Positions 5,138-11,332 of a stretch of DNA of 56,887 nt are shown here, in pieces. Source of the stretch: Campylobacterales bacterium (GTDB lineage Bacteria > Campylobacterota > Campylobacteria > Campylobacterales > QNZT01); the NCBI GenBank assembly GCA_027066435.1, contig JAMONX010000009.1, positions 1 to 56,887 of the forward strand, given 5' to 3'. Both the position numbers and the translations under genes were made by a program. The notes under the pieces are model-generated. The model was not told the DNA's origin. It saw nothing but the letters and a program-made list of their open reading frames with translations, and made no database searches. Numbering within the stretch: the stretch's first letter is position 1; every line of letters starts with the position of its first letter.

Positions 5138-5326
5138 TTAAGTCATTTTCATAAATAGTGCTAATGATAGAGCAATTAGAATTGTAAATATAAGCATAAG
5201 AAGATTTTTCATTTTTTCTGAGAGTTTTGTCTTTTTCTCTATAAAATTTACAATTTTGATTGCAGGAAATATAGAAAAAGTTAAAAATGCCATCATAAAG
5301 ACAAGTGTTATAACTGTATCTATCAT
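5138..5326 (-). CDS. Small membrane protein of unknown function (62 aa)
   Basis: 62 residues with two hydrophobic segments (about 3-27 and 41-60) separated by a lysine-rich loop (EKKTKLSEKMKN). The start overlaps the stop of the cytochrome c/d1 gene by four bases (ATGA), and the SDR gene follows after 4 bases, so it is embedded in an operon rather than a chance frame. I do not recognise a family. A role in membrane anchoring or electron transfer next to the d1 protein is only a guess. Confidence 0.6.
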   Translation of the reverse strand: MIDTVITLVFMMAFLTFSIFPAIKIVNFIEKKTKLSEKMKNLLMLIFTILIALSLALFMKMT

Positions 5327-8706: not shown

Positions 8707-8859
8707 CTATTTTCCCTCTTCCAGTTTTTTCTTTTCATCCCTATACAACCAAATCATTGGAAGTATAATAATGACATGAAGAAAAATTGTTAATAACATT
8801 GGAAATTGATTTAGTGTTCCAAAAAAACTAGGAACTATATCCGAAAATGGTTCAAACAT
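8707..8859 (-). CDS. 50-residue single-helix membrane protein between norB and nirS
   Basis: A short gene with AAGGAG six bases before its ATG (rc of CTCCTT just above 8859). The product begins MFEPFSDIVPSFFGTL, has one hydrophobic helix at about residues 20-39 (containing FLHVIIILPMIW) and ends in a charged tail YRDEKKKLEEGK. It lies 48 bases after norB and 68 before nirS, all on one strand. Size and layout recall small accessory subunits of respiratory oxidases, such as CcoQ-type proteins, but no family is recognised. Real coding status rests on the strong ribosome binding site, the membrane-protein composition and the tight position. Confidence 0.65.
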   Translation of the reverse strand: MFEPFSDIVPSFFGTLNQFPMLLTIFLHVIIILPMIWLYRDEKKKLEEGK

Positions 8860-8907
8860 TGTATCTCCTTAGATAAATATTTGTCGGGAAAAAAATTCCC
8901 AACATAA

Positions 8908-10347
8908 TTAAGCTTTCGCCACCGTTTCACTGAGTTTCGCATTCTTACCGATTGTAAGTAAATCAATGATAAGAAAAATAAAACCAACTAGCATTACTGC
9001 ACCCATTGCAAGTCTCCATCCCATGCCTTGGACAAACCAAATTGCATTTTGTGAGATAAAGAAACCTTCCCAAGTTGCACCAAATTGTGCTCTTTCAACA
9101 AGTACTTGTCCATATCCAGAGATAAGAAGTGCAACAGTCATCCCCAGCATACCTCCATTTAGAAGCCAAACTGCCATTTTAAAATTAAATGTTGCCTTCA
9201 TAGTTTTTACACCATAAGCTCGTTGAAGTCCCATATAAAACATACCAATTAGTATTGTTGCATATGCTCCCCAAAATGCCAAGTGTCCGTGTGAAGAAGT
9301 AAACTGTGTACCGTGGGTATAAATATTTACCTGAGGAAGTGTATGAAAAAATCCCCAAACACCAGCACCTAAAAAGTTACCAAATGCATTAGCCACAATC
9401 CAAACAAAAGCAGGTGTATTTGTCATATGTGCTTTTCCACCTTGTCTTCCAGCTTCTTTACCCCAATCATAAATAACATGAACTAACATTGCTACAAGTG
9501 GTACAGGTTCAAGTGCTGAAAATAGTGCACCAATTTCCCACCAGTATTCAGGAGTTCCTATCCAAAAGTAGTGATGTCCCATACCTAGTATTCCTGAACC
9601 AAAGAGCATAGCAACTTCAATCCATAACCACATTTCAACTATTTGTCTCTTAGCTCCTAATATTTGTATAAGTGACCAAGCGGCAACTGTTGCGACATAA
9701 ACTTCCCAAGTTGCTTCAACCCAAAGGTGTATTACCCACCACCACCAAAACTGATCAACTGTGATGTTTGTTGTGAAAAACATACCCGCTAAATATAGAC
9801 CTGCAAGGGCTAAAAGGTTTGCCATCATAACAGTTATAATACCTGTTCTTCTACCTTTAATAGCAGTTGCATAGACATTATAGATAAATCCTAAAACTAC
9901 AACAACTATACCGATATCAGCCCATCTAGGTGCTTCGATATACTCTCTTCCTTCATGAATCAACCAAATACTAGCTTCAGTCCCTGCACCTACTTGTACA
10001 AAAATATAGACTAACACTACTACTGTTATAGCCGCTGTAAAAACCCAAAATAGAAGTTTACCAACACCTACTGCCACAGTCTCTATACCTGTTTCAGAAG
10101 GAAGCAATAGATAAACTGAGCCTATCATCGCAAATAGCATCCATACTACAAGTGCGTTTATATGCACCATTCTTGCTACTGAGAAATCAAAGATTTCAAA
10201 CAAAAAAGCTGGATATAAAAATTGAATAGCTATTATCATACCCATCAAAAGTTGAGCACCAAGTAAAATAATGGCAACTCTATAGTACATCATTGCCAAT
10301 TTTTCTGATTCATACTTAAATTCATTTTTTTTGATACTACCGACCAT
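8908..10347 (-). CDS. norB: Nitric oxide reductase, cytochrome c-dependent, large subunit
   Basis: Catalyses 2 NO + 2 electrons + 2 protons to N2O + H2O at a heme b3/non-heme iron centre in the inner membrane. 479 residues, about 12 membrane helices. The key residues fall at the same numbers as in known NorB proteins: low-spin heme His62 with His353/His355 (SSHGHLAFWG), and the iron-B ligands His207, Glu211, His258 and His259 (VIHLWVEATWE and GMGHHYFW), with Glu215 and Glu280 nearby. There is no N-terminal quinol-oxidase extension, so it is the cNor type, consistent with norC directly upstream. The start overlaps the norC stop by 11 bases. Confidence 0.96.
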   Translation of the reverse strand: MVGSIKKNEFKYESEKLAMMYYRVAIILLGAQLLMGMIIAIQFLYPAFLFEIFDFSVARMVHINALVVWMLFAMIGSVYLLLPSETGIETVAVGVGKLLFWVFTAAITVVVLVYIFVQVGAGTEASIWLIHEGREYIEAPRWADIGIVVVVLGFIYNVYATAIKGRRTGIITVMMANLLALAGLYLAGMFFTTNITVDQFWWWWVIHLWVEATWEVYVATVAAWSLIQILGAKRQIVEMWLWIEVAMLFGSGILGMGHHYFWIGTPEYWWEIGALFSALEPVPLVAMLVHVIYDWGKEAGRQGGKAHMTNTPAFVWIVANAFGNFLGAGVWGFFHTLPQVNIYTHGTQFTSSHGHLAFWGAYATILIGMFYMGLQRAYGVKTMKATFNFKMAVWLLNGGMLGMTVALLISGYGQVLVERAQFGATWEGFFISQNAIWFVQGMGWRLAMGAVMLVGFIFLIIDLLTIGKNAKLSETVAKA

Positions 10348-10984
10348 GAATTGCTCCTTCTATTTTGCCAAAGTTTCTTGGGAAACCGTTGGTGTCAATC
10401 GAACTCATGTGTTTTAAAAATGCTACAAGCCCAATTGCTTCATCTGCCGTGATACCCAGATTTGGCATCATTCTCTCATGTGTAGGATATTTTGAAGGAA
10501 ATTGTAAGAATTCAGCTATTGCTTCTTCCCTAGTACTTTTCCCTGTCATTCCAAGATAATTTTCCCAAGCAGGATCAAGCCAAGCTTTTGTAAGATCTGG
10601 AGCATAATATGCACCATTTCCTAAAAGTGTATGACAGTTCATACAGTTTTTTGCTTGAGAAGTAAGTTTGCCAAGACGAAGCAAACCAGCAGCTTCTTCT
10701 TCACTCCACTCTTTTCCAAAAAACGGCTCTTTTTCTCCGATAACTGGAACTTCATGACCCCTTTTTTCACTCATCTCATATTTGATATTATAGTTAATTA
10801 CTGTAGGAGCTGGAACTCTCTTAGTAATACCATTTTTTAGATCTTCATCACTTCCCATTGAAATTTGTGCTCCCGTGTCAAAGGTGAGCCAAATAAGTAA
10901 TATTGCCGCAAAACCTGTAACCCAGCCCGCTGAACGCTGCCAGAAACGACCACTAGCCCATACTGAAGTTGGTCTCTCTTCCAT
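10337..10984 (-). CDS. norC: Nitric oxide reductase, cytochrome c subunit
   Basis: Electron-entry subunit of cNor. 215 residues: one membrane anchor at about 19-36 (GWVTGFAAILLIWLTF), a periplasmic stretch, then a single c-heme site CMNCH (114-118) followed by TLLGNGAYYAPDLTKAW. This motif and the end SSIDTNGFPRNF are NorC hallmarks. It is longer than the roughly 150 residues of many NorC proteins. The extra length lies mostly between the anchor and the heme (about 40-110), a segment of unknown role. It is read together with norB (11-base overlap) and follows the 108-residue membrane protein by 21 bases. Confidence 0.93.
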   Translation of the reverse strand: MEERPTSVWASGRFWQRSAGWVTGFAAILLIWLTFDTGAQISMGSDEDLKNGITKRVPAPTVINYNIKYEMSEKRGHEVPVIGEKEPFFGKEWSEEEAAGLLRLGKLTSQAKNCMNCHTLLGNGAYYAPDLTKAWLDPAWENYLGMTGKSTREEAIAEFLQFPSKYPTHERMMPNLGITADEAIGLVAFLKHMSSIDTNGFPRNFGKIEGAIHGR

Positions 10985-11005: not shown

Positions 11006-11332
11006 TTAGTGTTCATATGCTTCGTGAGTCTTAGTCATTAAAAAGTAGATGAAATGTGGAAACACAAGATATGCAACCAAAGCCATCATTAATACTTTTT
11101 GAGTGAATGGATCACTCCCAATAAGACTGCTTAGAAGATAAAAACAGTAAGCAAGTACAACCCAAATAACATATGCAATTGGCATATAGTAACCTTTGAG
11201 TTTTTTAATCTTTACAAATGTAAAGACACCAACATAAGCAGCAGCAAGTAAAACTACTAAACCGCCTAATATAAAGACAAGCAAAAAATCATCAAGTGGA
11301 ATTTCTGGTCTTAATCTTATGATCTCTCCCAT
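11006..11332 (-). CDS. Three-helix membrane protein, first gene of the nor-nir operon
   Basis: 108 residues with three membrane helices (about 15-40, 48-71, 78-100). The short N-terminal head starts MGEIIRLRPEIPLDD and the tail ends KTHEAYEH. It begins the operon directly under the FNR-type promoter and lies 21 bases before norC. I do not recognise a named family. It is smaller than NorE, which is related to cytochrome oxidase subunit III, and shows no clear NorE motif. A role in nitric oxide reductase assembly or electron supply is inferred from position only. Confidence 0.65.
   Translation of the reverse strand: MGEIIRLRPEIPLDDFLLVFILGGLVVLLAAAYVGVFTFVKIKKLKGYYMPIAYVIWVVLAYCFYLLSSLIGSDPFTQKVLMMALVAYLVFPHFIYFLMTKTHEAYEH

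Follow-up and report, generated by a model that had tools for sequence, protein, structure and literature searches.

The reading frame between norB and nirS

The DNA considered in this study, referred to below as the window, is a stretch of 56,887 nt from a Campylobacterales bacterium. Its minus strand carries, in order, an ORF of 108 codons, norC, norB, a short reading frame that I will call ORF50, nirS, a second gene of the cytochrome-cd1 type, and an ORF of 62 codons. The first product (11006..11332) is a membrane protein, and norC (10337..10984) and norB (8908..10347) encode the cytochrome c subunit and the catalytic subunit of a cytochrome-c-dependent NO reductase (cNor). ORF50 (8707..8859, minus strand) encodes a predicted single-pass membrane protein of 50 residues, MFEPFSDIVPSFFGTLNQFPMLLTIFLHVIIILPMIWLYRDEKKKLEEGK, and is preceded by a Shine-Dalgarno sequence, AAGGAG (8865..8870, minus strand), 5 nt 5' of the ATG. 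The first-pass annotation had pointed to an unlisted ORF between norB and nirS with this AAGGAG, an ATG, one membrane helix and a charged tail; the gene order bears out the position, and sequence and hydropathy bear out the rest.

Hydropathy gives a single hydrophobic segment, with its peak at about residues 19–39, and a transmembrane helix is predicted at about residues 19–40 (8740..8805, minus strand) from hydropathy, an AlphaFold2 (AF2) helix and conservation; H28, P34, M35 and Y39 are invariant within it. Since the N-terminus is acidic, with a net negative charge, and the C-terminal tail is net positive, the predicted topology is N-out/C-in.

The gap between norB and ORF50 contains a hairpin (8882..8904, minus strand). 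Hairpins of unrelated sequence, mostly with no run of T, recur in the same gap of many relatives where it is at least 40 nt long, and no such hairpin is found where the gap is 9–23 nt (it is often 9–12 nt in Sulfurimonas and Arcobacter types, in contrast to window-like lineages, where hairpins occur). As an element of mRNA stability or stoichiometry, the hairpin may cause norCB and ORF50-nirS to differ in mRNA level. The cluster contains another unlisted small protein, a two-helix membrane protein of 62 aa (5138–5326, minus strand), homologs of which turn up close to the nor/nir genes in many relatives, in no fixed place and on one strand or the other.

A scan of GTDB genomes with NorB yielded 80 loci, and TBLASTN placed an ORF50 homolog immediately 3' of norB in virtually all of them, the named exception being a zetaproteobacterium (L107), whose norB is followed by none. 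The orthologs span Arcobacter-, Sulfurimonas-, Sulfurovum-, Sulfuricurvum- and Nitratiruptor-type genomes. The extracted set comprises 97 loci and the window itself, and the orthologs, all beginning with ATG, are 48–55 aa in length. A motif resembling a Shine-Dalgarno sequence stands at the expected place in 91 of the 97; in the remaining six, translation probably starts at another in-frame ATG, three codons further 5'. Substitutions are predominantly synonymous (mean pS 0.73, mean pN 0.18, pN/pS about 0.25), and a comparison of 40 diverse members shows no change at 12 residues: D7, P20, L23, T24, L27, H28, I31, P34, M35, Y39, E42 and K43. Measured against the window, ORF50 has kept its sequence about as well as NorB has, and better than the 108-aa protein. 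By the marks of a conserved frame, purifying selection and a ribosome-binding site, ORF50 is a genuine protein-coding gene. The doubts that accompanied the first-pass annotation, that relatives might have no conserved frame here or that substitutions might reveal no protein-level selection, are answered by a frame open in all 98 rows and a median dN/dS of 0.18 (from the less saturated pairs).

Linkage of ORF50 to one type of NorB

The association with norB was assessed in 298 evenly sampled Campylobacterota genomes, with ORF50-type NorB defined by a score above 660 bits. Such a NorB is present in 44 genomes, and ORF50 adjoins norB in 43 of them; in the last (G238) the contig stops no more than a base from where the norB match ends. 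A profile search of the 298 genomes found no strong match to ORF50 away from norB, the four extra matches being weak and partial (E from 0.005 to 0.01). Five genomes (G149, G304, G271, G196 and G311) encode a second type of cNorB, with 38–42% identity, and ORF50 was found neither at these five loci (norCB-norD-norQ) nor at the qNor loci of the sample. G149 has both types of cNor and a single ORF50, which adjoins norB of the first type. Within Campylobacterota, then, ORF50 is strictly linked, one to one, with one NorB subfamily, and the earlier proposal of an unrecognised accessory subunit of cNor is thereby well supported.

Two observations made along the way concern the loci themselves. The classical second cNor of a few Campylobacterota (L140–L144) has the order norC-norB-norD-norQ and a GVDRE motif. 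A contig titled as a Desulfosporosinus MAG (L033) bears an Arcobacter-like nor-nir locus, and the record is probably mislabelled or misbinned.

A NorH-type cNor without NorQD

The ORF upstream of norC recurs in almost every Campylobacterota nor locus whose sequence extends to that point, and its product matches no Pfam model and no specific NCBIfam model. The closest plasmid-borne relative of the window's NorB, at 51% identity, is that of Thermus, where the operon order is norC-norB-norH-nirS and NorH has 98 aa. In a three-sequence BLASTP comparison, Thermus NorH matched its zetaproteobacterial homolog with E=1e-10 and the 108-aa protein of the window with E=2e-4. Two papers treat NorH as the third subunit of Thermus NorCBH (PMC5748679, PMC5015936). 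By this homology of the 108-aa protein, the enzyme of the window is NorCBH plus ORF50, a NorH-type cNor. The first-pass annotation had overlooked both the homology to NorH and the absence of NorQD from this type of cNor.

The cNor of Paracoccus cannot receive FeB without NorQ and NorD; D220 and E222 of its NorB are required too, and NorD presumably docks there (PMC9976466). Among Campylobacterota, NorD, NorQ and CbbQ_C are confined to the five genomes that have the second type of cNor; none of the 42 others, the window's own genome included, has them. At the position equivalent to 220, all ORF50-type NorBs that were read have K, R, H, N or S, while all five of the NorQD type have D, the zetaproteobacterial NorB has R and that of Thermus has P. 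The window's NorB has K233 and Q235 at the positions of D233 and E235 in P. aeruginosa, which correspond to D220 and E222 of P. denitrificans by alignment and by the equivalence of Paracoccus E198 with P. aeruginosa E211. Long NorD-like matches at 31–33% in the zetaproteobacterium and in one SUP05 genome were taken as putative CbbO-like paralogs. By genome content and sequence, the ORF50-type cNor looks independent of NorQD.

No ORF50 was detected on two Thermus nor plasmids or in one zetaproteobacterium with a NorH-type cNor, and it follows that enzymes of this class can work without it. Since NorB shows the same change in both of these lineages, ORF50 is an addition within Campylobacterota and not the general replacement for NorQD.

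The proposed role of ORF50 and its relation to known proteins

ORF50, a real membrane protein of small size, is in my view probably the dedicated fourth component (NorH-NorC-NorB-ORF50) of a cNor that does without NorQD. I infer that it binds NorB, most likely as a structural or assembly subunit. It would span the inner membrane once, with the N-terminus in the periplasm and the EKK(R/K)LE tail in the cytoplasm, and would pack on NorB (or on the anchor helix of NorC) through the invariant face P20/T24/L27/H28/I31/P34/M35/Y39. There it may stabilise the complex or help to assemble it, as CcoQ does on cbb3 oxidases, in a class of cNor that the NorQD ATPase does not mature. A pair of cysteines near the N-terminus (EPCxDxxC) occurs in 7 of the 97 orthologs, those of Nitratiruptor-type genomes (L101–L104, L106 and L108) and of L035, and in every case both cysteines are present or neither. 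The second lies at a different column in L035, which suggests an independent gain, and the pair fits a periplasmic N-terminus in an oxidising compartment. An AF2 model of a read-through fusion of NorB and ORF50 recovered the cNOR fold (3o0r, 4xyd) and placed the ORF50 helix at fusion residues 518–543, with only moderate confidence (pLDDT of the block about 53–76), a result compatible with docking on NorB but no proof of it.

It is also conceivable, if rather unlikely, that ORF50 is a transient maturation factor instead of a stoichiometric subunit, replacing NorQD together with NorH in the insertion of FeB (or of heme b3), the invariant intramembrane His28 and the periplasmic Asp7 handling the metal. 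The complete anti-association of ORF50-type cNor and NorQD in Campylobacterota speaks for such a factor, as do the loss of the acid on which NorD docks in NorB and the invariance of D7 and H28. The NorH-type NorBs of the zetaproteobacterium and of Thermus, however, also lack the acid at D220 and have no ORF50, so independence of NorQD needs no ORF50; furthermore, qNor inserts FeB with no helpers (PMC9976466), and ORF50 has no metal-binding signature beyond single residues. A broader proposal, to which I give about as little weight, is that this lineage of cNor dispenses with the NorQD AAA+ machine and matures FeB by a route intrinsic to the membrane. NorH would act there as a helper or permanent subunit, as would ORF50 in Campylobacterota, with His28 of ORF50 aiding the handling of metal or heme or a path for protons.

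To return to ORF50 as a subunit, the small proteins it resembles in anatomy are those of the CcoQ/FixQ family (PF05545, TIGR02736), which have about 50–80 aa, one helix and a basic cytoplasmic tail that starts with EKK, and whose gene lies within the operon of an enzyme of the heme-copper superfamily. ORF50 differs in its N-terminal block and in accompanying NorB, not CcoN: it is always found with norB and not with the ccoNO/P of a cbb3 oxidase, and the window's genome encodes a CcoQ of its own elsewhere. True homology, by which a CcoQ/FixQ protein was recruited to cNor, strikes me as quite improbable. The two are of equal length, each has one helix, both contain a similar stretch that closes with [IL]Y-x-[SQ]-EKK, hhalign aligns ORF50 with Campylobacterota CcoQ over 29 columns, and FixQ appears at E=0.14 in Pfam. 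Yet the hhalign probability is just 33%, which is not significant, the FixQ match (12.6 bits) falls far under its cut-off of 29, and TIGR02736 gives no match to ORF50. Moreover, the N-terminal D-V-V-P-S-F-F ... N-Q-G-P block has no counterpart in CcoQ, and a pattern of EKK after one helix arises easily by convergence. The comparison with CcoQ and CydX made at first is reasonable by way of analogy, but the similarity to CcoQ is below significance.

That ORF50 serves NirS and not cNor, either as an anchor for the cd1 nitrite reductase or by coupling NirS to cNor for the channelling of NO, is very improbable. ORF50 does sit between norB and a cd1 gene at most loci, and contacts between NirS and cNor have been studied in other bacteria (PMC6872814, PMC5658584). 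The downstream cd1-like gene nonetheless varies, from 65–90% to 28–30% identity to the window's NirS, while ORF50 is conserved throughout, and its distance from norB is often 9–12 nt. In a SUP05-like gammaproteobacterium (L039), the 108-aa ORF (norH), norC, norB and ORF50 are followed by host genes, for an SMR transporter and succinyl-CoA ligase, then efp and epmA, and nirS is absent downstream; a second SUP05 genome (L031) has the same norH-norC-norB-ORF50 cassette. ORF50 has therefore moved as a unit with norHCB, and without nirS, into a gammaproteobacterium. The two genomes are the only ones among 83 of their family to carry it, and 398 sampled Pseudomonadota gave no further match, so that a rare horizontal transfer from Campylobacterota is likely. 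Because the SUP05 cassette lacks nirS, ORF50 belongs to nor and not to nir; the suggestion of a NirS accessory subunit is not supported, as ORF50 stays behind norB whatever comes next. As for the ORF being no gene at all, one arising by chance or a leader whose translation rather than product matters, its shortness and the terminator-like hairpin 5' of it might suggest as much, but this is refuted by strong conservation of amino acids, purifying selection (dN/dS about 0.18) and presence across genomes, and a leader peptide would not be expected to conserve residues over nine tenths of its length.

NO reductases produce N2O. In vents, sulfidic waters and wastewater, Campylobacterota rank as major denitrifiers, and four genes seem to encode their cNor, which lacks the chaperones held essential for the cNor of Paracoccus and has one component, ORF50, outside all Pfam and NCBIfam models. 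This would explain why norCB alone, or with the norQDEF helpers of Paracoccus, might fail to give an active Campylobacterota cNor in heterologous hosts, and it makes a directly testable question of how cNor acquires FeB without NorQD.

Scans of 40 aligned ORF50 members against Pfam and NCBIfam returned chance matches only (ASFV_J13L, Stevor, FixQ), all under their cut-offs; the ORF50 profile matched no PDB sequence, and the consensus protein had no plasmid match. No description of ORF50 was found in the open-access literature on NorH, on the cNor of Sulfurimonas and Arcobacter, or on small cNor subunits, and the paper on Nitrosophilus labii draws hypothetical genes in denitrification clusters without describing them. 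Among the accessory proteins of cNor, the FeB-insertion chaperones NorQ and NorD (PMC9976466, PMC13036017) may share a purpose with ORF50, namely maturation of cNor, but they are cytosolic AAA+ and VWA proteins, absent from genomes that have only the ORF50-type cNor. NorE and NorF, from the norCBQDEF of Paracoccus, are likewise accessory genes of a cNor operon, but of a NorQD-dependent one, a type that has no ORF50 beside it, and heterologous cNor was unaffected by them (PMC9976466). A close parallel in setting is Thermus NorH: both are small membrane proteins encoded in a nor operon without norQD, that of a cNor seemingly independent of them. NorH differs, however, in being a homolog of the 108-aa ORF and not of ORF50 (E=5 against the latter). 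With no Pfam or NCBIfam model and no PDB chain covering it, ORF50 is provisionally filed as a new family of small subunits on a known class of enzyme.
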